Shown here piece by piece: positions 10,150 to 28,468 of a stretch of 28,468 nucleotides of DNA. The notes below the pieces were generated by a model. It saw only the letters and a program-made list of their open reading frames with translations. It did no database searches and had not been told where the DNA came from. Both the position numbers and the translations under genes were made by a program. This DNA is from a virus. The stretch spans positions 1-28,468 of the IMG/VR virus record IMGVR_UViG_3300036820_000644, one strand, 5' to 3'. How positions within the stretch are numbered: position 1 is the stretch's first letter; the number at the start of each line of letters is the position of its first letter.

Positions 10150-10160
10150 TCCGCGTCTCA

Positions 10161-10693: not shown

Positions 10694-10732
10694 TCCAATC
10701 CGACGAAAACACACCAAAGACAAAGATTATAA

Positions 10733-10909: not shown

Positions 10910-10964
10910 GGACGCCCAGATTGCTCCGGGCGTCCGTCGACTAAAGCCTTGAGGGGCGGTAGCC

Positions 10965-11072: not shown

Positions 11073-11305
11073 GACAATCTAAGCTTCTGGTGGAAGCCAG
11101 ACGCGCTCTCGGCGCGGCCGGTTGGACGGCCCGATCTCCCTGCCAGGAGACGGGCCGTTTCGCTGTCTAGGATCACATATGACGCTTCCTCTGGCGGCGG
11201 CGGGCTTGCCGGCGCCATTGGGTCGAACGTAGCCAATCGGCATGGCTTCGTCTGACGGAAAGGGGCGCAAAGGGTTTTTTGTCCTTGTCGGCAGAGAAAC
11301 GCAGA

Positions 11306-11335
11306 AAAGGGACAAAAACTAGTTTTTGTCCCTTT
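11306..11335. terminator. 30-bp perfect palindrome overlapping a stop codon (bidirectional terminator)
   Basis: AAAGGGACAAAAACT (11306-11320) is followed by its exact reverse complement (11321-11335) with no loop bases left over. On the minus strand it contains the last codons and the TAG stop of the gene ending at 11319. The A/T runs on both sides would act as a U-tail in either direction. Confidence 0.6.
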
Positions 11336-12152: not shown

Positions 12153-12253
12153 CGAGGCGGAGGCTCGATCGCTAGCGGCTAGTGAGTCAAGTACGTTGAT
12201 GCTTGGCAACCGGTCGGCGTCCAGCCTTACCCGACTACCGCATTGGCTTGGGT

Positions 12254-14050: not shown

Positions 14051-14133
14051 AGCGTGTACTCTAACCCCGCGGCCAAGCTCTGGGGAAGGCCTTAGCCGAA
14101 CCCTAAGACAGGTCGTGCGGCGGCTAGGCTCTG

Positions 14134-14153
14134 GTTCGACACCGCAGTCGAAC
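14134..14153 (+). promoter_or_regulatory. Inverted repeat adjacent to the ribosome-binding site of the virion protein gene
   Basis: GTTCGAC (14134-14140) and GTCGAAC (14147-14153) form a perfect 7-bp inverted repeat around a 6-nt spacer, immediately before AGGAG of the TTG-started gene at 14165. It lies in the divergent region between that gene and the aspartyl-protease gene, so it could be an operator for either promoter or an RNA hairpin that limits translation. Confidence 0.4.
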
Positions 14154-14164
14154 AGGAGCCCCCG

Positions 14165-15727: not shown

Positions 15728-15732
15728 CCGAC

Positions 15733-16122
15733 ATGAGCTACATGTACATTCCCAACGGCTCCGGCCCGGCCCAGACCCAGCCGGGTCAGACGCCAGGACA
15801 GACTGCTCCTCTGCCGGCGCAGACCGGGGCGCCGCTGGCGGCGACGCCGCAGGACTACGCCGCCGCCCTGGCGCGGCTGAGCCAGCAGGCCCAGACCGGC
15901 CTTCGCACGCCCGGCGCCCTGGCCTCGAGCCTCGGCGCGGATGCGCTGCTCCGGTATGCCCAGGGGTTGGCGCAACAGAAGGCTGCACAAGCTCCGCCGG
16001 CGGGGTCCCCGACGGCGGGCGGCGGCCAAACCGCGATCCAGCTGCCGTCGGGTGCGCTGCCGATCGGGCAGCCGGGACCGCAACAGGCGCCGGGGGCCTT
16101 CAGTCCGTGGGGCCATCCGTGA
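15733..16122 (+). CDS. Gln/Pro-rich small phage protein
   Basis: A 129-residue protein starting at ATG 15733, six bases after the previous stop; ATG 15742 is an alternative. The first third and last third are Gln/Pro/Gly-rich and probably disordered, while the middle (DYAAALARLSQQAQTGLRTPGALASSLGADALLRYAQGLAQQ) is helical. The frame is open far upstream, but there it only shadows the Gln-rich virion gene. It overlaps the next gene by GTGA. Role unknown; virion or assembly accessory by position. Confidence 0.55.
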   Translation: MSYMYIPNGSGPAQTQPGQTPGQTAPLPAQTGAPLAATPQDYAAALARLSQQAQTGLRTPGALASSLGADALLRYAQGLAQQKAAQAPPAGSPTAGGGQTAIQLPSGALPIGQPGPQQAPGAFSPWGHP

Positions 16123-16448
16123 TCGCTTCGACCGTGGCCAACTGGCTGGCTTTCGGCGGGCTGGTCTTCCTGATCTGCTCGGCGTCGGTGACCTTCGCCT
16201 TCGGGCTCGGACGGGTGTTCCAGCGCGTGGGCGATCTGCGCGCGGACGTGGACGAGCTGAAGCAGGGCGAGGCGGAGGAGGGCAGGGCGCGCTCGTCCCT
16301 GCGCGAGGCCTTCGCCCGCTTCGAGGGCCGCATCGAGGCCAAGCTCGAGCACCTGGACGGCCGTGTGGCCGAGCTGACCCGGGCCTTCCTCGGCCGTCAT
16401 GGGCGCGCCGGCCCCAAGCCCGCGCCTGAAGCGGAGGGTCGGCCATGA
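16119..16448 (+). CDS. Membrane protein with coiled coil, holin/lysis accessory candidate
   Basis: A 109-residue protein. GTG 16119 overlaps the preceding TGA, so I prefer it over the upstream ATG 16107. A single membrane helix (about residues 5-30: TVANWLAFGGLVFLICSASVTFAFG) is followed by a charged coiled coil (about 35-85) and a basic tail. This one-helix plus coiled-coil plan is typical of small proteins beside endolysins in prophages. It may be a class III-like holin or a regulator of lysis; the sequence alone does not decide. It overlaps the lysozyme gene by ATGA. Confidence 0.6.
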   Translation: MIASTVANWLAFGGLVFLICSASVTFAFGLGRVFQRVGDLRADVDELKQGEAEEGRARSSLREAFARFEGRIEAKLEHLDGRVAELTRAFLGRHGRAGPKPAPEAEGRP

Positions 16449-16921
16449 CCACCGCCTTCCTCGCCCAGGACCTGCGCGTCGATGAGGGCCTCAGGCTTCG
16501 GGCCTACCCCGATCCGCTCTCCGGCGCGGATCCCTGGACCATCGGCTATGGCCACACCGGCCCTGAGGTCCGCGAGGGCCTTGTCTGGACCCCGGTCGAG
16601 GCCGAGACGGCCCTGATCGCCGACATCGCCAGGGCCTGCGAGCTGCTCGATGCGCATGCGCCCTGGTGGCGCGGGCTCAATGACGCCCGACAGGATGTCC
16701 TGGCGAATATGGTCTTCAACATGGGCTGGCTGAATCCAGCCGGGACCCACGGCCTCGCGACCTTCCACGATGCCTTGGCCGCCATCCGGGCCGGCCGCTG
16801 GCAGGAGGCCCACGACGGCCTCCTGGACAGCGCCTGGGCCCATCAGGTCGGCGCCCGGGCCCGACGGCTGGCGGCGCAGCTGCTGAGCGGGGTCCGGGCG
16901 CCGGAGGAGGCCGCCGCATGA
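16445..16921 (+). CDS. Endolysin, T4-type lysozyme (GH24)
   Basis: A 158-residue muramidase that cleaves the MurNAc-GlcNAc bond of peptidoglycan. The T4 lysozyme catalytic triad is present in the right spacing: Glu14 in VDEGLRLRAY, Asp23 in YPDPL and Thr32 in WTIGYGHTG. The helical C-terminal part (VLANMVFNMGWLN, then the TFHDALAAIRAGRWQEAHDGLLDSAWAHQVGARARRLAAQLLSG helices) also fits the family. Length is normal for T4/P22-like enzymes. No signal peptide or SAR anchor is obvious, so it should need a holin for export. It has a GGAGGG site upstream, and overlaps its neighbours on both sides by ATGA. Confidence 0.92.
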   Translation: MTTAFLAQDLRVDEGLRLRAYPDPLSGADPWTIGYGHTGPEVREGLVWTPVEAETALIADIARACELLDAHAPWWRGLNDARQDVLANMVFNMGWLNPAGTHGLATFHDALAAIRAGRWQEAHDGLLDSAWAHQVGARARRLAAQLLSGVRAPEEAAA

Positions 16922-17133
16922 GCGCCCAGGCCCAGACCCTTTTGGCCGGCGCGGCCCTGGTGATGCTGGGACTGCTGACAGGCTGCCTGGTGTTCGTGGC
17001 CGTGCCGCAAGGCAACCAGCAACTCGTCACCTTCGCCCTCGGCGCCCTGGCCGGCGCGACCACGGTGGGCGGCGTCGGACGCATCGGCGGCGCGTCCAGA
17101 CCCGGCGGCGAGCCGCCATCCCCTCAGCCCTGA
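16918..17133 (+). CDS. Putative holin
   Basis: A 71-residue protein with two hydrophobic segments, about residues 8-30 (LLAGAALVMLGLLTGCLVFVAV) and 36-53 (LVTFALGALAGATTVGGVG), followed by a short Pro/Gly-rich tail. Size, two-helix hairpin and immediate overlap with the lysozyme gene (ATGA) point to a class II-like holin that would open the inner membrane for the endolysin. No sequence family is recognised. Confidence 0.65.
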   Translation: MSAQAQTLLAGAALVMLGLLTGCLVFVAVPQGNQQLVTFALGALAGATTVGGVGRIGGASRPGGEPPSPQP

Positions 17134-17146
17134 CGGAGATCCACAG

Positions 17147-17473
17147 ATGTCCTTCCTCTCGCAGTCCCTGAACCAGATCGAGCACGGCGACATCGCCGAC
17201 TGGGCCAAATACGCCATCGGCTATGTGAAGCGCCGGATCGGCCAGCCGCTGTCCCCCGACGCGGCGAACGCCGCCATCAGCGACATCGACGGCTTCAAGG
17301 CCTCGGTCGAAACCGCCGCCAACGCCTATCTGACCGCCAGGCTCGGCCCGCTGGGCGGCGCGCTGGCCGCCAATGTCGCCGATCACGCGGTGCAGGCGGT
17401 GGCCACCACCCTCGAGGCGGCGACCCGGGCGCTGGAAGCGGCGCCGGCCAACGCCCCGGCGCCCCAGGCCTGA
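17147..17473 (+). CDS. Phage lysis-region protein, unknown
   Basis: A 108-residue protein starting at ATG 17147 with GGAG upstream. The N-terminus (SFLSQSLNQIEHGDIADWAKYAIGYVKRRIG) is an amphipathic helical region. The middle ISDIDGFKASVETAANAYLTARLGPLGGALAANVADHAVQAVATTLEAATRA is Ala-rich and helical, perhaps membrane-active but without a clear transmembrane helix. It sits between the holin-like gene and the spanin gene. Function unknown; possibly a lysis accessory factor. Confidence 0.55.
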   Translation: MSFLSQSLNQIEHGDIADWAKYAIGYVKRRIGQPLSPDAANAAISDIDGFKASVETAANAYLTARLGPLGGALAANVADHAVQAVATTLEAATRALEAAPANAPAPQA

Positions 17474-17477
17474 GCCG

Positions 17478-17954
17478 ATGCTGGCGCTGAGGCTGATCCT
17501 GGCGCTCGCGCTGGCCGGCGGCGGCTTCCTCGCCGGCTGGCGCGTGCACGACTGGCGCGATGGCGCCGCTGCGGCCAAGGCGGCCGTCCATGCGGTGCAG
17601 GTCGTGCAGAAGCAGGCCGCCGTCGCCCAGACCGTCGCCGTGCGCCAGCAGGCCGCCCAGGACCACGTCCGCATCGTCACCCGAACCCTGATCCGAGAGG
17701 TTCCCCGATATGTCACGGTCCAAGCTGACGCTGGCTGCGTTGTGCCTGACGGTTTCCGCCTGCTCCACGACGCGGCCGCCACAGGCGTGCCCGCCGCCGC
17801 CGAGCCCCCCGGCAAGTCTGCTGACGCCCCCTCAGGCGTTGCGCTCTCTGCCGTCGCCGACACGGTGACGGCCAACTACGGCATCTGCCACGAGACCGCC
17901 CTGCGCCTGCAGGGCTGGCAGGACTGGTGGGCCGGCGTGAGCAAGGCCCGCTGA
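17478..17954 (+). CDS. Inner-membrane spanin subunit, Rz-like
   Basis: A 158-residue protein starting at ATG 17478. Residues 1-20 form an N-terminal membrane anchor (ALRLILALALAGGGFLAGW). Residues about 28-75 are a Gln/Ala/Val-rich coiled coil. The C-terminal half lies in the periplasm. That is the plan of i-spanins, which fuse the inner and outer membranes in the last step of lysis. The decisive support is a second frame inside it encoding an Rz1-like lipoprotein. No cysteine pairing can be proven, but Cys at about residues 87 and 136 could link partners. It is the last gene of the prophage before the tRNA half. Confidence 0.75.
   Translation: MLALRLILALALAGGGFLAGWRVHDWRDGAAAAKAAVHAVQVVQKQAAVAQTVAVRQQAAQDHVRIVTRTLIREVPRYVTVQADAGCVVPDGFRLLHDAAATGVPAAAEPPGKSADAPSGVALSAVADTVTANYGICHETALRLQGWQDWWAGVSKAR
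17710..17868 (+). CDS. Embedded outer-membrane spanin subunit, Rz1-like lipoprotein
   Basis: A 52-residue frame lying wholly inside the Rz-like gene, shifted by +1. It opens with MSRSKLTLAALCLTVSACST, a lipoprotein signal with lipobox VSAC and Cys18 as the lipidated residue. The mature part is short and rich in Pro (PPQACPPPPSPPASLL), the classic o-spanin composition. It starts at ATG 17710 and stops at TGA 17866-17868. Nested Rz/Rz1 pairs are well known in lambda-like lysis cassettes; finding both in the expected arrangement supports the spanin call for the outer frame. It is easily missed by gene callers because of its length and full overlap. Confidence 0.8.
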   Translation: MSRSKLTLAALCLTVSACSTTRPPQACPPPPSPPASLLTPPQALRSLPSPTR

Positions 17955-18003
17955 TCCCGCACGCTGGAGCCCGGCCCGCGCCGCTGCTAAGAGCCGCGCC
18001 CAC

Positions 18004-18042
18004 GGACGGGTGGCCGAGTGGTTGAAGGCAGCGGTCTTGAAA
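18004..18042 (+). other. attL: truncated 5' half of tRNA-Ser(UGA)
   Basis: These 39 bases are identical to the first 39 bases of the tRNA-Ser at 27008 (acceptor 5' strand, D-arm and anticodon 5' stem and loop). After position 42 of the 18000s the sequence no longer matches a tRNA. The two copies are in direct orientation 9004 bp apart, with an integrase gene beside the right copy. This is the left attachment site of the element. Confidence 0.88.
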
Positions 18043-18146
18043 TGCGGTCGCGGTCGCGCCGCCTCGATCCGTTTGGACGTATCCTGAGCCGTTCCTCTCG
18101 GCCGATCCCGCGTCTCAAGCCGTTTAGAGCCATTCACCTCCGCCCC

Positions 18147-18156
18147 ATTGGTGGCA
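18147..18156 (+). other. Candidate integrase arm-type site, left
   Basis: ATTGGTGGCA occurs 105 bp inside the left att core. A second, imperfect GTGGC follows at 18163-18167. The same decamer sits near the right core (26933-26942). Matching repeats at both ends of an element with a tyrosine integrase are expected for arm-binding sites; binding is inferred. Confidence 0.4.
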
Positions 18157-18231
18157 AGTTGAGTGGCGGGCTGCTATATTGATCACTGCGCCGGGCCCTC
18201 CCAGATCGCCCCTCCCGGGCTACCCGAGCCG

Positions 18232-18558
18232 ATGACGGTCGGGCCAAAGATCCCCCGCGCCGAGACCGCCGTGATGACCGTTCCAAGAATCATCGGGGAC
18301 GCGCAACTGATCGCGCCTGCCCGCGTGGCGTCGATGATCCACGCGTTTGAGAACATGCGAGCTGCCAGACTGACGGGGCTGCCGCCGGAGAAGTGGTCCG
18401 CGGCCGACCAGGTCCCCTGGTTGCAGGGCGCGACGCGCCTGCTGCAGAGCGTCGTTGCCGCCGAGCTAGGGCGCGCACCGGGCAGGAGGATTCTCTCGGC
18501 GGAGGAGCTGTTCAACCACTGCTTCGACGCGGCCCTCCAAGCCAGTCTCCGGCCCTAG
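18232..18558 (+). CDS. Hypothetical protein at the left end of the element
   Basis: A 108-residue protein if ATG 18232 is used; the frame is open from 18163, and ATG 18274 is another choice, with no Shine-Dalgarno to decide. The sequence PRIIGDAQLIAPARVASMIHAFENM, then WSAADQVPWLQGATRLLQSVVAAELGRAPGRRILSAEELFNHCFDAALQASL is helical and protein-like. It lies alone on the + strand between attL and the convergent end of the minus-strand operon, the place where satellites and prophages often carry an accessory or defence gene. No domain is recognised. Confidence 0.5.
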   Translation: MTVGPKIPRAETAVMTVPRIIGDAQLIAPARVASMIHAFENMRAARLTGLPPEKWSAADQVPWLQGATRLLQSVVAAELGRAPGRRILSAEELFNHCFDAALQASLRP

Positions 18559-18714
18559 ACACAGGCTGCCGTTGCGGGCCGGGGGCGCCGAAAGGAGAGA
18601 CGCTTGTCCCGGCCCGACTCGGCTCAGGCGCCAGGATAGTGCCCGCCGTTGCCGCTGTTGTTTCGCTCACCTGCGGCTGGAGCGCCTGGCCGCGAGAAGG
18701 TTGTCGGCCAAGGG

Positions 18715-19215
18715 TCAAGCGGGCGACATGCCACCACGCCTGATGGTTTCGACGATCACCGGCGCCGGCGCTTTCTGGCCGTGCAGCCGGGCCGTCGGCT
18801 CGGCGGGGAGAGCGAGCAGCGCGCCGAGGCCCGAGATAACCCGGCCGATCGTCTGATAGGCTGCGTCATAGCCAGGCTCGTCCCTGCACATGAGGAACAG
18901 CGAGCCGTCGCCGTCGCTGGGCACGCGAGACCAGCACCACGAGACGGCACCCGCCAGGTGCTGACTATGCCGGACCCGCCGGGGCTCGACCCGCTTGAAG
19001 GGGGGCGTCTGGGCCAGCTCGATGGCCGCGGTATCGGCTTTCACCCGAAGCCGCGCACCGTCGTAGAAACCGCCGCTGGCAAGATCCTCGACACGGCCGC
19101 AGACATCGGGCTCCGCCTCGGCGTCCAGCTCGATATCGATCGCCTCCGCAATCCCCACCAAGCGCATGGTGAGCCGTACCGGCGGCGCCCCGGGCGGCCG
19201 GCTGGGCCGCTTCAT
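18715..19215 (-). CDS. Cyclophilin-like protein, degenerate active site
   Basis: A 166-residue protein starting at ATG 19215, which overlaps the upstream stop by ATGA. It has the order of a cyclophilin-type peptidyl-prolyl isomerase: an IDIELDAEAEP strand, an LASGGFYDGARLR loop, a DGSLFLMCRDEPGYDAAYQTIGRVISGL core and a final strand (APVIVETIRRG). The usual FHR...MxQGGD and SQFF active-site residues are replaced, so prolyl isomerase activity is doubtful. It closes the element's long minus-strand operon. It may be a folding or assembly factor for particle proteins, or have lost its enzymatic role. Fold call is by pattern only. Confidence 0.5.
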   Translation of the reverse strand: MKRPSRPPGAPPVRLTMRLVGIAEAIDIELDAEAEPDVCGRVEDLASGGFYDGARLRVKADTAAIELAQTPPFKRVEPRRVRHSQHLAGAVSWCWSRVPSDGDGSLFLMCRDEPGYDAAYQTIGRVISGLGALLALPAEPTARLHGQKAPAPVIVETIRRGGMSPA

Positions 19216-19937
19216 CGCATCGCCAGGGCGTAGCACTTCTGCCCGGCCGGGGTGGCCAAGGCGTCGGCGAAGTGCTGCTCGAAAGATCGGCTCGGGTCGG
19301 CCTTGTGGCGCTCGCGGGCGGCCTTGGTGACCGCGCCGATGTAGTCCTCGGGCGTGGGTTCACCGAGGTCGGCCGGGGCGCCGTTGCTCTGGCCAGGGCC
19401 GCCCTGGTTGCGGCCGATCGCCTGCGCCGGCGACATGTTCTCGACGGGCTCGCCCCAGGCGCTCTTCCTGATCTGGGCGCCGCGCTCCATGTCCTTGCGG
19501 ATGCCCTTGTCGATCTGGTTTTCCTGATCGTCGCCGTCCACTGAGCTCGAGCGATCGTCGTAGGTCTTGCGCTCACGCTTGCCGCCATCGGCCCATGCCT
19601 CGGGCAGCATGTGCTCCGCCCCAAGCTGGCTGGCGCGCTCGGTGATATGGCGCTTGGTCTCCTCGGGCGTGGAGGAGCGGCCATAGGCCTCGATGGCGTG
19701 GTGCAAGTCGGCGACGTCGAGGATCGGGAAACTGCCGTTGCTCTGGGCGAGGCCGCGGCGGGCCAGCTCCTGGCGCTGAGCCGAGCTGTAATCTCGTTTG
19801 GCGAAGGTGGCGCCCACCGGCTCATCTCCCGTGCTGTCGCGCTTCAGGATGCAGATCCGCGCGCCCTCTTGGGCGGGCTTATCGACGCCGCTGATCTCGT
19901 GGATCTTGAACTTGGTCATGACGCCGGGAATCGCCAT
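19212..19937 (-). CDS. Phage head-region-type protein with XkdF/prohead-like N-terminus
   Basis: A 241-residue protein. The start (MTKFKIHEISGVDKPAQEGARICILKR) is typical of phage proteins linked to prohead proteases of the XkdF type, but no protease domain follows. Residues about 45-115 (YSSAQRQELARRGLAQSNGS, then ADLHHAIEAYGRSSTPEETKRHITERASQLGAEHMLPEAW) match a conserved helical module found in such proteins. The C-terminus (TPEDYIGAVTKAARERHKADPSRSFEQHFADALATPAGQ) resembles another common phage motif. It lies where portal and capsid genes would follow in a full phage, yet those are absent. It may be a capsid-modifying or packaging accessory factor. Confidence 0.6.
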   Translation of the reverse strand: MAIPGVMTKFKIHEISGVDKPAQEGARICILKRDSTGDEPVGATFAKRDYSSAQRQELARRGLAQSNGSFPILDVADLHHAIEAYGRSSTPEETKRHITERASQLGAEHMLPEAWADGGKRERKTYDDRSSSVDGDDQENQIDKGIRKDMERGAQIRKSAWGEPVENMSPAQAIGRNQGGPGQSNGAPADLGEPTPEDYIGAVTKAARERHKADPSRSFEQHFADALATPAGQKCYALAMR

Positions 19938-20236
19938 CAGAAGCGCCCTCCGCTGGCCACGTTGCCAACCCCGGCTTTGTGCAGGGCAGCGGCCTTGCCG
20001 GCCTTGAAGTGCTCGTAGATCTCCGGCCGCTCGCGCATGATCCGGTCGGCCGCCTGAGCGTGGGATTCGCCGCCGGCGACGTCTCGGTGCCGCTCGATCA
20101 ATTCCTCCATGGCGCGATCATGGCCGGCGGTGTGCCGGAGCACCTGGTCGGCGCGGTTCACCGGCTCGGTTTCGGGCTTGGGCTCAAGGCCGAAGGCCGC
20201 GCGGGCCTCGGCATCGGTGGGCAGCGTCTTGGCCAT
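19937..20236 (-). CDS. Small hypothetical phage protein
   Basis: A 99-residue, highly charged helical protein (MAKTLPTDAEARAAFGLEPKPE, then HDRAMEELIERHRDVAGGESHAQAADRIMRERPEIYEHFKAGKAAALHKAG). It is joined to genes on both sides by TGATG overlaps in the minus-strand operon. I do not recognise a family. The helical repeat and basic C-terminus suggest a small assembly or scaffold-type factor, but this is a guess from composition. Confidence 0.55.
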   Translation of the reverse strand: MAKTLPTDAEARAAFGLEPKPETEPVNRADQVLRHTAGHDRAMEELIERHRDVAGGESHAQAADRIMRERPEIYEHFKAGKAAALHKAGVGNVASGGRF

Positions 20237-20646
20237 CAGGTGGCCTCCAACTCGCCGGAGACCGCCGGCGTCGGGGCCGAATTGGCCGGGGTGGTGCGGA
20301 AGGCGGCCGAGGCGCTGAGCGCGGCCCTGGCCTGGTGCAGATAGCCGCGCCGGTGGCCGCTGAGCACGTAGGGCAGGCCGAGCAGCCGGGCGACGTCGCC
20401 ATGCTCTGCCAGCGCAGCTTGGACGTTGTGGACCGTCAGAAGGCCGTGGATCGCGCCTTTGCCGCCGAGCTGTGTAACGCCAGCCAGCCTCGCAATCGCC
20501 GTCCTGCGCCTCGCCAGGGCCGCCAGCATGGCCGTTGCGTGCCGGTCGGCCTCGGCGGACGCTTCCAGCACTTCAGCTTCGAGACTGCCGGCTGCAATCA
20601 CCGGCGCGGGTGGCATAGGCGGCCTGCGGGACCACGGAAACATCAT
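20236..20646 (-). CDS. Hypothetical helical protein
   Basis: A 136-residue protein starting at ATG 20646, which overlaps the upstream stop by ATGA; a second ATG follows directly. The N-terminal 20 residues are Pro-rich (PWSRRPPMPPAPVIAAG). The rest is long helices (SLEAEVLEASAEADRHATAMLAALARRRTAIARLAG, and HNVQAALAEHGDVARLLGLPYVLSG) ending in an Ala/Thr/Pro-rich tail. No domain recognised. Its place between the winged-helix gene and the head-type protein suggests a packaging or assembly accessory. Confidence 0.55.
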   Translation of the reverse strand: MMFPWSRRPPMPPAPVIAAGSLEAEVLEASAEADRHATAMLAALARRRTAIARLAGVTQLGGKGAIHGLLTVHNVQAALAEHGDVARLLGLPYVLSGHRRGYLHQARAALSASAAFRTTPANSAPTPAVSGELEAT

Positions 20647-20975
20647 GGTGTGATCCCCTGGCGGCGCAGGTTCGCGTTCAACACCGCTTCGTCGGGATCG
20701 GCGCCGCCTTCGTACCTCTCGCCCCTCTCGTTCGCGATGGCTCGGCCCAGCTCGGCCCGGCCGATGTCGGTCAACATCCAGCTCCAACCATCGGGCCGGC
20801 GCAGGTGATGCTCCAGAAGGTGCTCCTCGGTCATCAGCGCGACCGCCCGGGCGCAACGGTGCAGCTCCAGGCCAGTCGCCTCGGCGAGCTGCAAGGTGGT
20901 CATCGAGACCTTGGCCTCGGCGAGCGCTTCCAAGATCTTGCGGCGGTCGGTCGGACGGCGGTGAAGGTTCAGCAT
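20643..20975 (-). CDS. Winged-helix DNA-binding protein
   Basis: A 110-residue protein starting at ATG 20975, overlapping the terminase stop by TGATG. Residues about 10-75 show a winged-helix pattern: RRKILEALAEAKVSMTTLQLAEATGLELHRCARAVALMTEEHLLEHHLRRPDGWSWMLTDIG, that is helix, helix-turn-helix, then a two-strand wing, as in MarR/GntR-like small regulators. It could control the operon or act with the terminase at the packaging site. The frame is open further upstream, but that part shadows the terminase. Confidence 0.6.
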   Translation of the reverse strand: MLNLHRRPTDRRKILEALAEAKVSMTTLQLAEATGLELHRCARAVALMTEEHLLEHHLRRPDGWSWMLTDIGRAELGRAIANERGERYEGGADPDEAVLNANLRRQGITP

Positions 20976-22483
20976 CAAAACGCGCCTCCTAGAGCCCTGA
21001 TTGGCCCATCGTCGTAGCTGTCGTAGCCATCTTGGAGCTCGCTCCGGCGGCTGAAGATCTCGGGCGGCCCGAAGCCGCAATCCAAGTCGACGTCGAGCCG
21101 GCTCGACGCCAGCATCAGTGCGCCCGCCGCAGCGTTCGCCAGGTCATCGTGCGCGGCAGCACCGGCACCATGGTCGACGCTCTCACGGCCGCCCGCGTGA
21201 GCCCTTCGTTCGAGCCCCGCCAGCTGCTGGCGGAGAGGCTGGCTGTCCAGCAGCCGCGCCCGTCCTGACAACAGCAGCGGCAACGCGGCCAGGTAGATCT
21301 CGCTGCGGTTCCGGCGGGATGGCCGATAGTGCACGCCCGCCCGGGAGAACTCATCGCGGACCCAGCCGCCGGAGAAATGATCGCCCTGGACCTCGCTGCA
21401 CCGATATGCGCGCAAGGTCTCAGCGAACTCCACCACCACCGCCGCTGGAACGAACCTCGGCCGGCGCTCCCTTAGCACATCCAAGATCACCGCATTGCCG
21501 GGACCGGCATGCGCTATGCCCATGGTGAAGCTGTCTTGGCCGGTCCCGCCCGCCGCGTCGACGAAGGCGCGATAGGCGACGCCCGGCTCTGGAGCGCGCT
21601 CCCGGACCTTCCAATCCGTGCACGCCTGGATCGCGTCATCAGGCACGAAATCGGCGTCAGTCGACCGCCACTCCGCCAGGTATTCACTGCGGGCGCGCAC
21701 CGGGTCATCGGCCAGCGCCTGGCGGATCAAGGCCGGCGGCAACGCGGGATTCATGACCGTCGATGGCGCTACCCAGCAGACGTCCGCCGCCCGATCATTG
21801 GCGTGCAGCTCGCGCCAGCGCCGGTGCATGAGGCCGCGCGGCCGATAGGGCGAGCTGGACAGCACCAGGAAGCCACCACCAGGAACGGTCGCCATCGCCG
21901 GCTCGCATGCGGCGATCACCTCCTCGTCGCTCGATGCGCTCTCGCCATCCGCCCGCCAGAAGCACGCCTCGTCTCCGATCGTGGCGAGGCACGTGCGCGA
22001 GCGGATCAGCCGGTGATCGTTCGTGCCGACCTCGATCACCGCGCCCGACCGGAACTCGATCTCATCTTCGGTCTGGCGCACCACCTCGCCGGCCAGGAGC
22101 GGCGTTTCGAGAAGCCCGGCGCAATAGCGCCGCAACACGGCGGCCTGGCGCTTGTCGACGGCCAGGAGCAGCACCACGCCGCGTTCGCCGGCGCTCAGCA
22201 GCGTCCGCCAGTCCGCGGCCAGGGCGGCGACCCAGCACGCCAACGCGCTCAGGAACCGGCTCTTGCCGCCTCGGCGACCGATCAGCAGATAGAGGCGGCG
22301 CACCGGGTCTTTGGGCAGGCGGCGACGGCCGGTGCAGCGCTTGACCAGCTCAGCCTCGCTTCGCGTCAGCTGCTCGCCGCTGATCACCTTGGCCAGCGCA
22401 TGCCACGGGGCGAACGAGGGCGCCTTGAACGGGCCGCCGAGCAGCGCCGGATCGCGCAGAGCTGCGGCGAAGCTGACGCTCAT
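20975..22483 (-). CDS. terL: Terminase large subunit
   Basis: A complete 502-residue ATPase-nuclease that drives DNA packaging into proheads. In the ATPase half, a Walker A-like GRRGGKSR (about residues 69-76) and a Walker B-like CLATIGDEACFW (about 165-176) are visible, followed by a VLSSSPYRPRG coupling-type motif. In the nuclease half, acidic clusters are at AYRAFVDAAGGTGQDSF (about 305-321), VQGDHFSGGWVRDEF (about 364-378) and HDDLANAAAGAL (about 443-454), which fit the three metal-binding sites of the RNase H-like nuclease. It starts by ATGA overlap with the upstream small-terminase candidate. No portal gene follows, which is unusual for a phage. Confidence 0.88.
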   Translation of the reverse strand: MSVSFAAALRDPALLGGPFKAPSFAPWHALAKVISGEQLTRSEAELVKRCTGRRRLPKDPVRRLYLLIGRRGGKSRFLSALACWVAALAADWRTLLSAGERGVVLLLAVDKRQAAVLRRYCAGLLETPLLAGEVVRQTEDEIEFRSGAVIEVGTNDHRLIRSRTCLATIGDEACFWRADGESASSDEEVIAACEPAMATVPGGGFLVLSSSPYRPRGLMHRRWRELHANDRAADVCWVAPSTVMNPALPPALIRQALADDPVRARSEYLAEWRSTDADFVPDDAIQACTDWKVRERAPEPGVAYRAFVDAAGGTGQDSFTMGIAHAGPGNAVILDVLRERRPRFVPAAVVVEFAETLRAYRCSEVQGDHFSGGWVRDEFSRAGVHYRPSRRNRSEIYLAALPLLLSGRARLLDSQPLRQQLAGLERRAHAGGRESVDHGAGAAAHDDLANAAAGALMLASSRLDVDLDCGFGPPEIFSRRSELQDGYDSYDDGPIRALGGAF

Positions 22484-22896
22484 GCCGCGGCCTCAGCGGC
22501 GGCTTTCGAGGCCAGGTAGGCGGCCAAGTCACCGCCTAGCGGCTTGGCCTTGCGCTTGGCGGCGGCCAGCTTGTCCAGTGCGCTCAGCTCGCGGGTGAGG
22601 CCGTTGCTGAGGCGCACCAGGTCTTCGTCGCTGATCGTTAGGTCTCCACGGGCGAGCGCGCCGCGGACCTGCTCCAACCGCACGCTCAACGCCGCGGCGG
22701 TCTGAACGCGCAGCCGCTCGGCCGATGATAGCACAGCCAAGCCGCCCAACGGCTCGGCCAGCGCGTGCTCGCGGTCCCGCAGCAACCGGGCGCCGGCCGA
22801 TCGGCCGTCAGCATCAGCGAAGCGCCGCGTCCCGTTACTGACCCGGGCGCGGACCTTGGCCGAGCGCTGGTCAACGGCGGCATGATCGGCGGACAT
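22480..22896 (-). CDS. Terminase small subunit candidate
   Basis: A 138-residue helical, basic protein immediately before the large terminase. Start ATG 22896 is chosen for an AAAGGA site 7 nt upstream; the open frame reaches further but without coding character. The protein has an N-terminal basic region (residues about 10-40), then a long helical core (LSSAERLRVQTAAALSVRLEQVRGALARGDLTISDEDLVRLSNGLTRELSALDKLAAAKR). Position and helical build fit a TerS that would recognise the packaging site, but no clear helix-turn-helix is seen. The call rests mainly on synteny. Confidence 0.55.
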   Translation of the reverse strand: MSADHAAVDQRSAKVRARVSNGTRRFADADGRSAGARLLRDREHALAEPLGGLAVLSSAERLRVQTAAALSVRLEQVRGALARGDLTISDEDLVRLSNGLTRELSALDKLAAAKRKAKPLGGDLAAYLASKAAAEAAA

Positions 22897-22898
22897 CA

Positions 22899-22915
22899 GC
22901 GGTTCCTTTAACCGC
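22899..22915 (-). promoter_or_regulatory. Hairpin with the small-terminase ribosome-binding site in its loop
   Basis: GCGGTT (22899-22904) and AACCGC (22910-22915) flank a 5-nt loop that on the minus strand carries AAAGG, the Shine-Dalgarno of the gene starting at 22896. Such a hairpin may present or hide the site. Six base pairs only, so chance is possible. Confidence 0.35.
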
Positions 22916-23098
22916 CAAAGGGTATGGCGTTGGCCTTTGATTCCACAGAGTTTTCTCGCGCCGTCTGGAGCCGTGCCACGCCGTTTGCCACCAATCGGCT
23001 GTTCGCCCGGCCGCAATTGCGCGAGCGGCGCTGTGTCTGTGTCACCGCGGCGGCGGCAGGCTGCAAAAGCTGGCTCAGCCGGTCTGCGCGCGGTGCGG

Positions 23099-23692
23099 TT
23101 ATCCCGACCGACTTGGAAGCGCCGAGTATCGGCTCACCGTGGTCTCCGCCTTGCGCCGTTCGTCGACCAGTTCGGCGAGCAGTTTGAGCTGAGCTGTCCA
23201 GCGGCGGCGGCCTTCATGGCAGGCGTCGACAATTTCGCTGAGGGCTGGTCTGAACTTCGACGTGCGGCGCAACGTCTGAAGCGCCTCTGCGACGACGATC
23301 GGCGGAAAGCCCTCATCCACCAGGTCATTGGAGACGATCTTCTTGAACGCGTCGACGTCGCCGGCGCCCGCGGGATACACATCGAGCAGGATGCCCACGA
23401 ACACGCGGTTGGCCTTGGCATCAGGCGGCACGGCCAAGGCGTTTTCCGCAAGGGCGCTCAGTGCGAGCAGCTCGTGCTCGGTGGGGCCCTCCAAGAGCCG
23501 GCGGGCGCCCTCCAGGCCACCAAGCTCCCGGCTTTGGCTGCTGACGCGCAAGGCGCACACCAGGACTTGGCTCCACTGCCTCCGATCGGCGAGGGCCACC
23601 TTCTCCCCGTCCAGGGCGACAAGGGTGAAATCCTGCTGAGCACGGCGCGGCGCTGGCGGCATGGCGCCGCCGGGGATGAGGTCATTGGTCAT
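23099..23692 (-). CDS. Replication-region protein, possible helicase-loader-like
   Basis: A 197-residue protein starting at ATG 23692, inside the end of the replication-initiator-like gene (11-bp overlap). The middle (LLALSALAENALAVPPDAKANRVFVGILLDVYPAGAGDVDAFKKIVSNDLVDEGFPPIVVAEALQTLRR) is helical, and TSKFRPALSEIVDACHEGRRRW recalls the FxPSxAEI motif seen in phage helicase-loader-type proteins. That likeness, plus position after an initiator-like gene, is the only basis for the call. It is followed by about 200 bp without a gene before the small-terminase candidate. Confidence 0.45.
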   Translation of the reverse strand: MTNDLIPGGAMPPAPRRAQQDFTLVALDGEKVALADRRQWSQVLVCALRVSSQSRELGGLEGARRLLEGPTEHELLALSALAENALAVPPDAKANRVFVGILLDVYPAGAGDVDAFKKIVSNDLVDEGFPPIVVAEALQTLRRTSKFRPALSEIVDACHEGRRRWTAQLKLLAELVDERRKAETTVSRYSALPSRSG

Positions 23693-24428
23693 CGCTGAAC
23701 AGGTCCCTGACGGCTTCCTCGCTATGGCTGTGCGGTCGCTGCCGGGCGCGTGGCCGCGGCCGGAAGTCGGGCGCTTTGCGGATCCAGTTGCGGAGGGCTG
23801 CGCCCCAGTCCCTACATTGCCGATCATGCTCCAGGGCATGATCTCGGAACCGAGCTCCCTGGTCGCGTGCGTCAACCCCGAGGCTGGCTGCGAGGACGTT
23901 GACAGCGTCCAAGTCCGCCTCGGTCGGGAAGCCTTCGGGAATCGCAGTTGCTGGAGCACGCCTCCTGGGGCGCTCTCTCTCAATGGGTTCCTCAGAGGGT
24001 TCCTTCAAAGGGTTAGGCCCGACGCGCGCCGGGGTTTTTTCCGACCGCGCGTCTGGGTTTTTCCGACAGGCTGTCGGGGTTTTTTCGTCGAAAAGCCCGA
24101 CGGGCGTCTGGCTTTCTGGCCGTGATAACCCCGACGGGCGTCTGGGTTTCAGGACCGGCCGGAAGCGGCTTGAGATGCCAGCACCCCGCCCCCGCTGAAC
24201 TTCGACGTGGCCGCCGGCTTCAAGTACACGAACTGCGCGCCTGATTCCGTCAGGCGTGGCGCCCAGCTCGGAAGCCAGCCGGGATTGCGACGGCCACGCG
24301 GACCCATTCTTGGCGTTGATGTAGCGCACCGCCAGGATCAGCCCGACCCGAAGGGCCAGGGCGGACAGCTGGCCATCCGTCACCAGCTGCTCGATCCACG
24401 CGAGCTTGTCCTGGGTCGACCAGCTCAT
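23682..24428 (-). CDS. Replication initiator-like protein with winged helix and internal iterons
   Basis: A 248-residue protein. Residues about 10-90 (DKLAWIEQLVTDGQLSALALRVGLILAVRYIN, then GSAWPSQSRLASELGATPDGIRRAVRVLEAGGHVEVQRG) form a clear winged-helix domain of the kind used by phage replication proteins and MarR-like regulators. Residues about 92-145 are a Pro/Arg-rich linker with repeated KTP...RKNPDARSEKTP units. The C-terminal part (ATAIPEGFPTEADLDAVNVLAASLG, then FRDHALEHDRQCRDWGAALRNWIRKAPDF) matches the DNA/helicase-binding tail of O-like initiators. The linker DNA holds regular direct repeats (24019-24152), an arrangement like lambda ori inside gene O. Start ATG 24428 overlaps the preceding small frame. 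Confidence 0.7.
   Translation of the reverse strand: MSWSTQDKLAWIEQLVTDGQLSALALRVGLILAVRYINAKNGSAWPSQSRLASELGATPDGIRRAVRVLEAGGHVEVQRGRGAGISSRFRPVLKPRRPSGLSRPESQTPVGLFDEKTPTACRKNPDARSEKTPARVGPNPLKEPSEEPIERERPRRRAPATAIPEGFPTEADLDAVNVLAASLGVDARDQGARFRDHALEHDRQCRDWGAALRNWIRKAPDFRPRPRARQRPHSHSEEAVRDLFSDDQ
24019..24152 (+). repeat. Five iteron-like direct repeats inside the initiator gene (candidate origin)
   Basis: Five imperfect ~22-nt repeats with the core CCGACGGGCGTCTGGG plus a T-run begin at 24019, 24041, 24063, 24097 and 24131. The steps are 22, 22, 34 and 34 nt, so the last three are spaced by the same extra 12 nt. Such regular repeats within an initiator gene are typical of replication origins recognised by the protein encoded there. 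Confidence 0.55.
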
Positions 24429-24517
24429 CAGGCGCTCCGGAGGTGCAGCGTCATCACGACGCTGCGGGGATGGACCTGGACGGGGCGGAGCTGGGCGCTT
24501 AGGGTCGCTGCGCTCAC
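24428..24517 (-). CDS. Possible 29-residue translationally coupled peptide
   Basis: A GTG at 24517 opens a 29-codon frame that ends TGATG over the start of the initiator-like gene. The peptide VSAATLSAQLRPVQVHPRS ending in MTLHLRSA is plausible but has no good Shine-Dalgarno. It fills an otherwise empty gap of about 160 bp in the operon and might couple translation of the initiator. Confidence 0.25.
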   Translation of the reverse strand: MSAATLSAQLRPVQVHPRSVVMTLHLRSA

Positions 24518-24591
24518 AAGGCAGCCGCCCCGCCAGGCGGATTTCAACGGTCGGCCCCTCCTACGTGGCCGGCCGTTGTCGTTTCGGCGTG

Positions 24592-24786
24592 TCAGGTCTG
24601 GCCCTCGGGCTCGGCGCCTTCGTCTTGGGCGCGCTGTTCGATCGTGAGCGCGGCGCGGCGGCCCGCCTCGAATCGCTCGTGCTCGAATTCGGCGGCGAAC
24701 AGCTCGTTGAATTCGTCCCATACCGACATGACGCTGCCCTGGGCGTGGGCGAGCAACCATTCGACCATCTCGTTCATCTCGGTCAT
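24592..24786 (-). CDS. Small acidic helical protein
   Basis: A 64-residue acidic protein starting at ATG 24786, one base after the preceding stop, with GGAGGG in the end of the upstream gene. The sequence EMVEWLLAHAQGSVMSVWDEFNELFAAEFEHERFEAGRRAALTIEQRAQDEG is a single long amphipathic helical region. Family unknown; small acidic proteins of this kind often lie between Xis-like and replication genes. Confidence 0.6.
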   Translation of the reverse strand: MTEMNEMVEWLLAHAQGSVMSVWDEFNELFAAEFEHERFEAGRRAALTIEQRAQDEGAEPEGQT

Positions 24787-24787
24787 G

Positions 24788-24997
24788 TCATCCCTCCGCC
24801 ATCGCCGCGGGCACCTCCGGCCCGCGAGTCCTGTCGGGCCCAAGGCGCTGCTCGGCCACCCACCATGCGGGAACCTTGATCAATCGCCCAAAGCGCCTGC
24901 CAGGGATCTCGCCCCGCCCGATCGCCGCTCGCACTGATTTCACTTCCATGCCCGTGGCGTCAGCCACCTCTTGGACACTCAGCAGCACCTTTTCCAT
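24788..24997 (-). CDS. AlpA/excisionase-like HTH protein
   Basis: A 69-residue protein starting at ATG 24997, with AAAGGAG 6 nt upstream on the minus strand. MEKVLLSVQEVADATGMEVKSVRAAIGRGEIPGRRFGRLIKVPAWWVAEQRLG is a standard MerR-like helix-turn-helix of the Xis/AlpA class: LSVQEVADATG first helices, VRAAIGRGEIPG recognition and wing, then a VPAWWV strand. In prophages and P4-like satellites such proteins direct excision or activate the element. It is the first gene of the long minus-strand operon and diverges from the RHH-integrase operon. Confidence 0.72.
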   Translation of the reverse strand: MEKVLLSVQEVADATGMEVKSVRAAIGRGEIPGRRFGRLIKVPAWWVAEQRLGPDRTRGPEVPAAMAEG

Positions 24998-25072
24998 GGT
25001 CGCTCCTTTGCCGCCCGCGATGGGGTGTTTCGCGCCGGAAGCTGCCATGCAGCGCCTTGAGGCGCCAAGGCT

Positions 25073-25095
25073 ACTGTGCTACGTCGTAGCACAGT
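25073..25095. promoter_or_regulatory. 23-bp palindromic operator between the divergent operons
   Basis: ACTGTGCTACG (25073-25083) and CGTAGCACAGT (25085-25095) form a perfect 11-bp inverted repeat about one central T. It ends 13 bp before the RHH regulator's ATG and lies between that gene and the divergent AlpA-like gene. It is the natural site for the RHH protein to repress its own and possibly both operons. Confidence 0.65.
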
Positions 25096-25108
25096 TACGG
25101 GGAAGCAC

Positions 25109-25702
25109 ATGGGCACCAGAGGTCCTCACGCCGGCACTGAGAAGCGCGGACCGCCGACCGGCATTCGGTTTGATCCCGCGCTGAAGGCCAGACTGAAGGC
25201 CGCAGCCGATGCTAGCGAGAGGACCTTCTCCGAAGAGGTCTCCGCGCGCCTTCAGATGTCATTCGGTGCCAATGACTGGTTTGGGGATGTCGAGACCTAC
25301 GCCCTCTGCCAGTTGATCGCGCTCGCCCTCAGAGATGTCGGCCGCTACTCGGGCGCGCCATGGCATCGTCATCCATGGTCGTATGGCCAAGCGAGCACGG
25401 CAGTCGCCGAGGTGATGGGCCACTTCAAGCCAGACGAATCGGCCGGTGAAGCGTCCCATCCCCTGGGGGATGACTTCTCATCCCCCGAGGCTAAGGCCAC
25501 GCTTCAGAATTTCAGGCTGGGCGAAGCGGTCGCTCTCCAAGCGGTCCATAGGCTGATGGCGCTGACAGAGCACAGCGACATTCAAGACGCGGATCGACTC
25601 CATGTGATCGCCGCCGGGCTGCTTGATCGGCTCATGCGCACCGGCACGGCTGAAAATGTCAGTAGCGCCTTGGACAAGCTCATAAAGGAGGGCTCATCGT
25701 GA
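25109..25702 (+). CDS. Ribbon-helix-helix (Arc-like) regulator, candidate element repressor
   Basis: A 197-residue protein starting at ATG 25109 with GGGGA upstream; an in-frame start at 25076 lies within the operator and is less likely. Residues about 17-52 (TGIRFDPALKARLKAAADASERTFSEEVSARLQMSF) are an Arc/MetJ-type ribbon-helix-helix: a strand followed by two helices. The remaining ~145 residues are helical with no recognised domain and may serve sensing or oligomerisation. It is translationally coupled to the integrase by GTGA and preceded by a perfect palindrome. In this position it probably controls lysogeny or excision; integrase would be produced together with its regulator. Confidence 0.65.
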   Translation: MGTRGPHAGTEKRGPPTGIRFDPALKARLKAAADASERTFSEEVSARLQMSFGANDWFGDVETYALCQLIALALRDVGRYSGAPWHRHPWSYGQASTAVAEVMGHFKPDESAGEASHPLGDDFSSPEAKATLQNFRLGEAVALQAVHRLMALTEHSDIQDADRLHVIAAGLLDRLMRTGTAENVSSALDKLIKEGSS

Positions 25703-26904
25703 ACGGATTTCAGCGACACCGTCGCGCCCGGGGCGACGGCGGCTATCGCCAGCGCGGAGAGTCCTGGGAGCTGAAATTTGCAGCGACCGACCCTGCGACC
25801 GGACTCCGCCGGATGAGGTACTTCACGCTCAGGGCTGAGCCCGGGCGGCCGACTCCCACGGAGACGGATGCCCGGAGGAAGCTCCGTGAGCTGGTCCGAC
25901 AGGCCGAGGAGGGCGCGTTCATCCCCCCCGCGCGTCAGGCGTTCGGCGACGTGCTCGACGCCTGGGACCGATCATTGTCCGTCAGCCCAAAGACGGCCGA
26001 GCGCTATCGCGAGCTGGTGCGGCTGCATATCCGCCCGCATCTCGGCGATCTTAAGCTCCAGGCGTTGCGCCCGACGCGCATCGAGGCGTTCTACCAGGAC
26101 CTTCGGGCCGGGCGAGGCCGTGACGGGAAGGGCGGCGCGCGGTCGCTGTCAGCCCGCACGGTCGGCCACATACACAGGCTCCTGGTGAAGATGCTGTCCC
26201 TGGCCGAGCGGGACGGCCTGATCGCGTCCAACCCGGCTCGCAAGGCCGAACGGCCCAGGGTCGAACGCACCGAAATCGAGATCCTCGGCGAGGATCAGGT
26301 GCGGGAGCTTCTGACCAAGCTGCGTGGCCGGCCAATGTACTTGATCGCAGCTCTTGGGGTGGCGACCGGAATGCGCCGGGGCGAAATGCTCGCACTCCGC
26401 TGGAAAGACGTGGACCTTGAGAGGGCGGAGCTACAGGTCCAGCAGTCGTTGGAACAGACCAACGATGGCCTCCGGTTCAAGTCGCCCAAGACCAAGTACG
26501 GGCGCCGCACCATCTCGCTCCCGGCGTTCATCGTCGCCGAGCTGAAGACCCACCGGGCCGCACAGAGGGAGGAGAGGCTCGCCCTAGGCCTCGGTAAAGA
26601 GGGCGACGATGCGCTGGTGCTGCGGCGCCCCGATGGTTCCCCGCTGGTCCCGGACAACGTGTCTTCCGAGTGGCGCAAGGTGGTGTCCAGCCCCAACCTC
26701 CCCAAGGTGAGCCTGCATGCTCTACGCCACACGCACGCGAGCCAGCTAATCGCCTCGGGCATGGACGTGCTCACGATCAGCCGCCGGCTGGGCCACGGGT
26801 CGCCGTCCATCACGCTTGACGTCTACAGCCACCTGTTTAAGCCGACCGACCGCGGCGCGGCGGCGATCTTCGACAAGGCCTTCGGTGCGTTGCAGGCCGA
26901 CTGA
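25699..26904 (+). CDS. int: Tyrosine recombinase, phage integrase
   Basis: A 401-residue integrase starting at GTG 25699, overlapping the RHH stop. Residues about 1-75 form an arm-type DNA-binding-like domain (GDGGYRQRGESWELKF strand pattern). Residues about 80-175 are the SAM-like core-binding domain (FGDVLDAWDRSLSVSPKTAERYRELVRLHIRPHLGDLKL opening). The catalytic domain shows Arg226 in TGMRRGEML, a Lys in SPKTKYGRRTISL, His340 and Arg343 in LHALRHTHAS, His366 in LGHGSPS and nucleophile Tyr376 in LDVYSHLF, so the active site is complete. It lies about 100 bp from the tRNA core and is expected to recombine the 39-bp repeats. Confidence 0.93.
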   Translation: MNGFQRHRRARGDGGYRQRGESWELKFAATDPATGLRRMRYFTLRAEPGRPTPTETDARRKLRELVRQAEEGAFIPPARQAFGDVLDAWDRSLSVSPKTAERYRELVRLHIRPHLGDLKLQALRPTRIEAFYQDLRAGRGRDGKGGARSLSARTVGHIHRLLVKMLSLAERDGLIASNPARKAERPRVERTEIEILGEDQVRELLTKLRGRPMYLIAALGVATGMRRGEMLALRWKDVDLERAELQVQQSLEQTNDGLRFKSPKTKYGRRTISLPAFIVAELKTHRAAQREERLALGLGKEGDDALVLRRPDGSPLVPDNVSSEWRKVVSSPNLPKVSLHALRHTHASQLIASGMDVLTISRRLGHGSPSITLDVYSHLFKPTDRGAAAIFDKAFGALQAD

Positions 26905-26932
26905 GAACAAACCGGAAGCATCTCGGAGCCCG

Positions 26933-26953
26933 ATTGGTGGCAGATAGGTGGCA
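26933..26953 (+). other. Candidate integrase arm-type sites, right
   Basis: ATTGGTGGCA (26933-26942) is followed after 4 nt by a second GGTGGCA (26947-26953). They lie between the integrase stop and the right core and match the left-end copy. Same orientation, near the core: a typical arm-site layout. Confidence 0.42.
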
Positions 26954-27007
26954 AGCCGCCGTCCGCCGCCACCGCCGACTGAGCTAAAGGTTTGATTTCG
27001 CTGGTGA

Positions 27008-27046
27008 GGACGGGTGGCCGAGTGGTTGAAGGCAGCGGTCTTGAAA
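27008..27046 (+). other. attR core: 5' half of tRNA-Ser shared with attL
   Basis: This stretch is identical to 18004-18042. The identity stops just after the anticodon loop (27046), so the crossover is inside or before that loop, a usual place for tyrosine integrases that use tRNA genes. Upstream of it the two copies differ from the first base before the tRNA. Confidence 0.85.
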
Positions 27047-27097
27047 ACCGCCGTGCGTGCAAGCGCACCGTGGGTTCGAATCCCACCCCGTCCGCCA
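27008..27097 (+). tRNA. tRNA-Ser(UGA), intact, with encoded CCA
   Basis: The 90-base gene folds as a class II serine tRNA: acceptor GGACGGG pairs with CCCGTCC (27087-27093), then discriminator G and CCA (27095-27097). The D-arm GCC/GGC, anticodon stem GCGGT/ACCGC with loop CTTGAAA (anticodon TGA), a long variable arm and T-stem GTGGG/CCCAC are all present. Its first 39 bases are duplicated at 18004-18042, so its 5' half and upstream promoter come with the integrated element and its 3' half is the original chromosomal one. Confidence 0.95.
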
Positions 27098-27459: not shown

Positions 27460-28314
27460 CTAAGCCGCCTCGGTGGCGCACTTGAACATCCACTGCTGAT
27501 CCGCCCATGCGGGCGGGATCGCGGTGTTGATCAGGGACTGCAGGTTCATGCCAACGGGCTGGCGTCCATCCAGGATCGCGAGCTGCAGGTCCGGTGCGAG
27601 GAAGGCTAGCTGCATCAGCCGCCGCTCATAGGTGCTGGCGAAGGTCATGTCTGCGGCGCCGTCGCTGCGGGCCTTCTTGCGGACCAGCGCATGGGCCTGC
27701 TTCAGCGCCGCCGCCAAGCTCTGGTCAGGCGAGGGGGTGATGGCCTGGGCGCCGGCCTCGTCGGTGATCCAGACCCTGCCTCCGCCGCGCTTCATGCGCA
27801 TGGGGATCGTTAGCCGCAGGGATCGCTGCACCTGCACCTCACGGAGCTTGAGGTAATCTCCCCGCTGGTTCGCGACCTGGCCGGCACGCTGATCTCGCCC
27901 TGGCGGCCGGAGCCCCGCAGTTTCGGCGGGGTCCTGCACGGTGCCTTCGTGTTTGTAGGCCTGAGAGCCTATTTCGACGCTGTCATCGCACCCCCAGACT
28001 CCGCCGTGGGCCGCCACCTTGACCAACGCCGCGCTGAGATCGCCACGGAGCTCTCTGAGATCGACGGCCCTATTCTGAAAGCAGGGCTGACAGAGCAGGG
28101 TGACGCTCTCCTCTCGCATTTGTTGGATTGTCCTGCCTACGCCGCGAGCCGGACCGTCAAACACTTCCGTCAAGCGTCCTCGTAGCCCCTCCGTCTTTTC
28201 CACAGCCAACCCCAACGCGTCAGATGCGCCGCGCGAAGTCCGCAAGATCGGCTTTGGCGGCGGGGTCCAACGCCACGTCCCAGCTAGGCTGCGGCTCGCT
28301 AAGGGCGGTCTCAA
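27460..28314 (-). pseudogene. C-terminal remnant of a large serine recombinase
   Basis: Only the last ~215 residues of this frame are family-like. NRAVDLRELRGDLSAALVKVAA followed by a VQRSLRLTIPMRMKRGG segment matches the region after the zinc-ribbon in large serine recombinases, and the end (LAAALKQAHALVRKKARSDGA, then YERRLMQLAFLAPDLQLAILDGRQPVGMNLQSLI with PPAWADQQWMF) matches their alphaproteobacterial C-terminal helical module. The catalytic N-terminal domain with its serine is absent; upstream of about 28110 the frame only shadows another gene. An in-frame ATG at 28119 exists. It is probably a decayed element that once used the neighbouring tRNA region. Confidence 0.6.
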
Positions 28315-28468
28315 TCGCCTCGCGCACCAAGCCGCCGCCGACCTTGCGGCCAGCCGCCAGTGTCAGCGCATCAGAGGCTTCCGCCCGTGCGATCTGCCAA
28401 AGTCGGACGTACTCCGCTGTCGGGTCGAGCTGATCGCCTAAGAACCCAGCCAAATCATCGATCGGCAC
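28220..28468 (-). CDS. Partial hypothetical protein at the window edge
   Basis: An 82-residue frame reading in from the right edge; an ATG coincides with the last bases, but the gene may start further out. The sequence LDPTAEYVRLWQIARAEASDALTLAAGRKVGGGLVREAIETALSEPQPSWDVALDPAAKADLADFARRI is helical, acidic at the start and protein-like. No family recognised. It overlaps the 5' part of the recombinase-remnant frame, which supports that frame being open there by chance only. Confidence 0.45.
   Translation of the reverse strand: MPIDDLAGFLGDQLDPTAEYVRLWQIARAEASDALTLAAGRKVGGGLVREAIETALSEPQPSWDVALDPAAKADLADFARRI

Follow-up and report, generated by a model that had tools for sequence, protein, structure and literature searches.

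Known phage satellites follow one of two routes: they redirect the packaging motor of a helper phage, through a cos site or a small terminase subunit (TerS), or they come with both a motor and a shell. The definition of capsid-forming phage-inducible chromosomal islands (cfPICIs) includes their own capsid, protease, portal, connectors and HNH genes (PMC10690885), some PICIs of Gram-negative bacteria carry TerS (PMC6092414), and P4 is packaged by the P2 terminase via cos sites, with Sid and Psu acting on the helper capsid (PMC10690885, PMC11389934). Here, we examined the IMG/VR virus record IMGVR_UViG_3300036820_000644, a stretch of 28,468 bases referred to below as the window, in which a 9.0-kb integrated element lies next to a podovirus prophage and encodes both TerS and the large terminase subunit (TerL).

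It was noted that the element shares with cfPICIs a tRNA or other specific attachment site, an integrase, an AlpA-like protein, a replication gene of its own and its own TerS and TerL, whereas none of the capsid, protease, portal, connector and HNH genes of cfPICIs was recognised in it. Gram-negative PICIs resemble it in their integrase, AlpA, replication module, size and lack of virion genes, but those described have no packaging function of their own beyond TerS or cos sites and rely on the TerL of the helper. Of their AlpA and Pri-Rep module, the window element has an AlpA-like HTH_17 protein; instead of a Pri-Rep there is an HTH_36/O-like initiator with iterons inside the gene, and no primase. 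P4-like satellites share the tRNA integration and an AlpA/Vis-type protein; unlike them, the element encodes both terminase subunits itself. A P4-type primase occurs in many of its relatives but not in the element itself, where Pfam and PHROGs scans matched no alpha-type primase, Psu or Sid. No description of such a family was found in the open-access literature, in which marine VEIMEs and tycheposons were met by name only and an earlier description is possible.

In our reading, the element belongs, as a divergent member, to a broad class of phage satellites that carry terminase genes, and we give a probability of about 0.66 to its being an intact or very recently active integrative satellite that carries its own packaging motor. 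This reading draws on boundaries, gene content, intact terminase residues, a tight operon and iterons, all observed in the window, and on a plan that recurs in other genomes. The ends are a perfect 39-bp direct repeat (18004-18042 and 27008-27046; spacing 9004), and the first 39 nt of an intact tRNA-Ser(TGA) equal the distal copy with 0 mismatches, so that the element has both the tRNA-Ser repeats and the tyrosine integrase expected of a site-specifically integrating satellite. Many integrases target the 3' end of tRNA genes. Attachment in the 5' half of tRNA-Ser was seen both in the window and in the relative L105 (1298-1336), where L-numbers are the labels of loci gathered as relatives. Because it integrates in this 5' half, the element must itself provide the tRNA upstream region.

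A plus-strand operon of a ribbon-helix-helix (RHH) regulator and the integrase stands divergent to a minus-strand series of the AlpA-like gene, small open reading frames (ORFs), the initiator, a 197-amino-acid gene, TerS, TerL and five more genes (Table 1). The clean attachment repeats, integrase, AlpA-like protein, RHH regulator, initiator with iterons, small-terminase candidate and complete large terminase named in an initial annotation of this DNA were all recovered. The integrase assignment is firm at the level of sequence; profile support is weak to moderate for the RHH-like regulator, the AlpA/HTH_17 protein and the HTH_36 initiator. Arc-domain proteins also adjoin the integrase gene in the relatives L016 and L023. 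The iteron pattern occurs 6 times across the whole window (4 times on the plus strand), every time within the initiator gene at 24020-24150, against 0.30 expected, and 0 of 100 shuffles reached 6 matches. Such repeats likely form the origin of replication. The initiator genes of L014, L016 and L111 likewise contain iteron-like repeats, and that of L014 encodes a homolog of the window initiator (E = 2e-12).

We then assessed the terminase pair. TerL can be firmly assigned from its sequence: it retains Walker A (GRRGGKS), Walker B (DE), motif III (SSP) and the nuclease residues D309, D317, D368, D446 and D447, and these catalytic positions are invariant or almost so across 106 related sequences. 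TerS matched no family in the profile search; its homologs lie immediately 5' of terL at 56 loci, with the identical 4-bp overlap at 44 of the 56. The alignment-based TerS model is helical and confident (pLDDT 85.6), and the best viral matches in the fold search were rich in small terminases, none of them significant. Neither TerL nor the TerS profile found a useful match among PDB sequences.

From terS to the far end of the element, seven genes form an operon with successive overlaps of 4, 1, 4, 1, 1 and 4 bp, recomputed with refined gene starts, and a GC content at third codon positions (GC3) of 0.82-0.89. As the initial annotation had stated, the genes are intact; no gene fragments, broken frames or deletion joints, which would mark a defective prophage, were found in the operon. 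Because it is continuous, with overlaps of 1-4 bp, the operon leaves no space for the joint of a recent deletion where terL meets its neighbours. The ORFs of the element gave zero portal, capsid, tail or lysis matches in Pfam and PHROGs scans, again in line with the initial annotation, and the element lacks a full set of virion and lysis genes, as a satellite would. The label of head-type accessory proteins held less well. Only the 241-amino-acid protein bears a head-like trace, its N-terminal part weakly resembling the C-terminus of the L008 prohead protease (E = 0.06), with a homolog in L096 (E = 1.4e-6), whereas two other products are a winged-helix protein (weak) and a cyclophilin-like protein. 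For the latter, a single-sequence AlphaFold fold was uninformative (pLDDT 30), and a search for relatives of the cyclophilin-like and 241-amino-acid proteins returned none.

With TerL alone as the query, the genome and viral collections gave no matches; an alignment that included plasmid homologs retrieved 64 viral and 50 bacterial-genome loci. Related TerL proteins with strong E-values occur in about 1% of the sampled alphaproteobacterial genomes (4 of 385). In eleven relatives, exact repeats of 31-63 bp flank the integrase and TerL, nearly all within a tRNA gene; with a few weaker cases beside them, these elements measure 8.9-16 kb and are found across many Alpha- and Gammaproteobacteria. 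At least nine have no recognised portal or capsid (L078, L080, L093, L099, L100, L104, L105, L107 and L112). The stand-alone islands that the initial annotation had named as support for a satellite therefore exist in kind, as tRNA-bounded TerS-TerL elements of 8.9-16 kb and circles of 9.3-9.7 kb. The case named as refuting it, the same ends enclosing portal, capsid and tail genes, was not found: the sole relative bounded by the same 39 tRNA-Ser positions, the 15.3-kb Rhizobium terricola element L105, carries TerS-TerL, a tape measure and a tail-completion protein, and no portal or capsid.

The virion genes of the relatives were then examined. In twelve of the repeat-bounded elements, the 100 ORFs that follow TerL up to the far end matched 16 Pfam families, 0 of them portal, capsid or tail; with PHROGs, one capsid and one virion structural protein appeared in the 25 of 49 families listed, and local profiles place them in L097 and L043, respectively. 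Portal profiles matched 32 virus records and 0 of 50 bacterial-genome loci, a count from which weak or unusual portals may escape. In the main clade of the TerL tree, 68 of 70 rows are without a portal by the first two portal profiles, and L034 and L027, both in that clade, have a portal of another type, that of L034 matching a solved portal structure (E = 1.9e-14). Portal absence is common in the family yet not absolute, given these two loci. Of 15 host genomes, 12 contain PF04860 portals, located away from the elements, and thus offer candidate helpers or gene transfer agents. A capsid gene follows TerL in L087, L091, L097 and L118, a DUF2213 head protease in some relatives, and a tape measure in many (L073, L075, L083, L087, L091, L101, L105, L111 and others). 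It was also noted that the tape measure recurs after TerL in integrative elements without most other tail genes (L020, L023, L081, L087, L091, L105, L111, L014 and L017), which suggests satellite control of tail length or DNA injection.

By initiator, the nearest relatives are the circular metagenome elements L014, which reads as a 9705-bp circle because of a 114-nt terminal repeat in the record, and its sister L017 (9338 bp). Both have the integrase, initiator, TerS and TerL, and they follow the integrase-AlpA-RepO-TerS-TerL order of the window element at a similar size (9.3-9.7 kb), the AlpA-like gene being visible in L014, whose homologous initiator also has repeats inside the gene. They differ in having another integrase type and, after TerL, a coiled-coil protein followed by neck-like and tape-measure-like proteins, the last two named from sequence reading. 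The TerS-TerL plasmids of Acetobacteraceae, Komagataeibacter pKNA06 and a Roseomonas plasmid of 9.7 kb, likewise lack a portal and capsid (TerL identity to the window about 40% and, over a short stretch, 33%), but are extrachromosomal, with a resolvase and primase/VapE-type replication, and ParA in Komagataeibacter. L002 (pKNA06, 1-25766) and L003 show a resolvase-TerS-TerL-DUF2213-ParA-VapE unit with no portal or capsid, and in the Komagataeibacter plasmid, whose recorded length is 25.8 kb, this resolvase-to-VapE unit is present twice, as partly duplicated copies about 15.2 kb apart. The circular Roseomonas plasmid (L004) encodes a primase, a resolvase and TerS; with its TerL shortened to 169 amino acids, it is possibly a decaying relative.

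Several points weigh against a satellite with its own motor. By integrase, the nearest relatives are L034 (46% identity), L111 (37%) and L105 (35%), and the L034 element (12304-17720) has a portal together with a 1044-amino-acid tape-measure-like gene; no capsid was seen in L034 or L027, and the L034 contig stops there. TerL is about 44% identical to its nearest relative, with no close relative in the collections searched, and in the TerL tree the window sequence lies on a long branch outside the main clade, not firmly placed in the satellite clade. The window is a virus record without a host genome, and for two relatives no clean empty site came up when joined flanks were searched for in Marinobacter and Phyllobacterium. 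We infer the steps of excision, induction, use of a helper and packaging into helper proheads, and a foreign TerL would have to fit the portal of the helper.

The initial annotation had left a trimmed prophage as the alternative, in which a temperate phage was reduced to its left arm, up to the terminase, by loss of the genes for portal, capsid, tail and lysis. TerS-TerL followed by a portal is the normal phage order, portal-bearing contigs with a related TerL exist, L034 and L027 retain a portal, and no close relatives show the exact window element conserved. Against this, terL leads into a series of genes that have intact starts, overlap by 1-4 bp and reach up to 0.7 kb from the attachment site, without gene remnants, all TerL motifs are retained, and portal-less tRNA-bounded elements in distant genera are not expected from a one-off decay. 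Decay of this kind is therefore unlikely in our judgment, and the satellite is favoured, with the reservation that it has no close relative in the collections and that its nearest relative by integrase has a portal. Five operon proteins without clear function might instead belong to a small temperate phage whose portal and capsid have diverged beyond recognition. The largest unassigned downstream protein has 241 amino acids, too short for known portals, there are zero candidates for capsid, tail or lysis, and, to our knowledge, known autonomous tailed phages are larger than 9 kb; together these points make such a phage very improbable.

An Mx8-like podovirus prophage occupies positions 1-18003. 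It is collinear with Bradyrhizobium phage ppBjS10J-1, with 61% identity between the capsids, and its lysis end (lysozyme 16445-16921) abuts the element at 18004, as first annotated. This contact, and the position of the prophage's own TerL beyond the left edge of the record, would fit an element that is part of the prophage and was split off by rearrangement. Yet ppBjS10J-1 has its TerL before the portal and unmatched to that of the element, which has its own attachment pair, its own integrase and the opposite orientation; we regard this origin as the least probable of all. Because the packaging genes are unrelated, the element is a separate unit in tandem with the prophage. The unrelated terminase type of the podovirus's relative also limits the reading of the neighbour as a helper. 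A different role for the terminase, resolving replication concatemers or blocking phage packaging while the element's own DNA is not packaged, would suit the related TerS-TerL units on circular plasmids with ParA and resolvase and no capsid. The conserved TerS partner and the motor and nuclease motifs of TerL point to full packaging activity, and many relatives add virion genes such as a tape measure or capsid, so that this role appears decidedly improbable.

For a satellite with its own motor, a mechanism can be proposed. The integrase would recombine inside the first 39 nt of tRNA-Ser for entry into and exit from the chromosome, with the AlpA-like protein as a likely excision factor and the RHH-integrase operon as a likely lysogeny switch. 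Replication would start at the iterons in the element's own O-type initiator gene. From the TerS-TerL pair alone, we infer that the element may be mobilised in particles by a helper phage: its TerS would mark element DNA, and its TerL would cut this DNA and pump it into helper-supplied proheads, while the helper would also contribute the portal, the capsid, the tail and the lysis functions. Tuning of packaging may fall to the five small genes downstream of terL, for example by adapting the helper prohead or regulating late genes.

Table 1. Predicted features of the element in window coordinates (aa, amino acids)
Feature	Position	Strand	Evidence
Distal attachment repeat	18004..18042	+	39 nt identical to 5' end of tRNA-Ser
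Small ORF, 94 aa, convergent with operon	18274..18558	+	GC3 0.84; start MTVPR; without Pfam match
Cyclophilin-like protein, 166 aa, final operon gene	18715..19215	-	PF00160 24.1 bits (cut-off 21.7); weak PDB match to cyclophilin 5ex2 (E = 3.2e-4); shares 4 bp with gene upstream
241-aa protein	19212..19937	-	phrog_24785 (function unknown) 1e-10; N-terminal part weakly like prohead protease C-terminus
99-aa protein	19937..20236	-	1-bp overlap each side; GC3 0.86; without family match
136-aa protein	20236..20646	-	4-bp and 1-bp overlaps; GC3 0.82; without family match
Winged-helix protein, 110 aa, possible regulator	20643..20975	-	HTH_24 E = 0.003, below cut-off; 1-bp overlap with terL; GC3 0.86
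Terminase large subunit, 502 aa	20975..22483	-	phrog_2 1.6e-21; motifs intact
Terminase small subunit, 138 aa, refined start	22480..22896	-	Homologs 5' of terL
197-aa protein after initiator	23099..23692	-	GC3 0.80; without family match
Replication initiator, lambda-O-like plan, 248 aa	23682..24428	-	HTH_36 3.1e-7; phrog_270 6.4e-8
Iterons within initiator gene, likely origin	24019..24150	.	4 direct copies
Small ORF, <=83 aa	24592..24843	-	GC3 0.85; without family match
AlpA-like/excisionase-type helix-turn-helix protein, 86 aa	24788..25048	-	HTH_17 1.6e-5; recombination directionality and excisionase PHROGs at about 1e-3
Ribbon-helix-helix (Arc-like) regulator, 208 aa	25076..25702	+	TraY 0.0026; phrog_228 0.009
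Tyrosine integrase, 401 aa	25699..26904	+	PF00589 1.3e-21; PF14659 1.8e-8
Intact tRNA-Ser(TGA), attachment site at integrase end	27008..27097	+	ARAGORN

A further ORF at 24428-24760 is probably spurious (GC3 0.62). Within the podovirus prophage, positions 9001-10500 have a GC content of 0.53-0.56, compared with about 0.69 elsewhere, and likely represent a cargo insertion after the acyltransferase gene. The right flank (28201-28468) is 87% identical to a hypothetical gene of a Bradyrhizobium plasmid, a hint of a host in the Hyphomicrobiales or of a further mobile element.

The recurrence of tRNA-bounded elements in many proteobacteria suggests a little-described virus parasite that loads its own DNA into the shells of another virus. 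Evenly balanced, in our view, is the broader proposal that these elements form an old and broad satellite lineage of Alpha- and Gammaproteobacteria, with its own complete TerS-TerL motor, brought into helper proheads, as the fixed signature and with single virion parts that vary between members (tape measure, capsid, head protease or portal), never a whole virion. If a satellite does swap the motor only, a TerL can be matched to the portal of another phage type. The usual marker gene of phages, TerL, would then also mark many non-phage elements, and the 50 bacterial-genome loci suggest that counts of partial prophages often include such elements in error.

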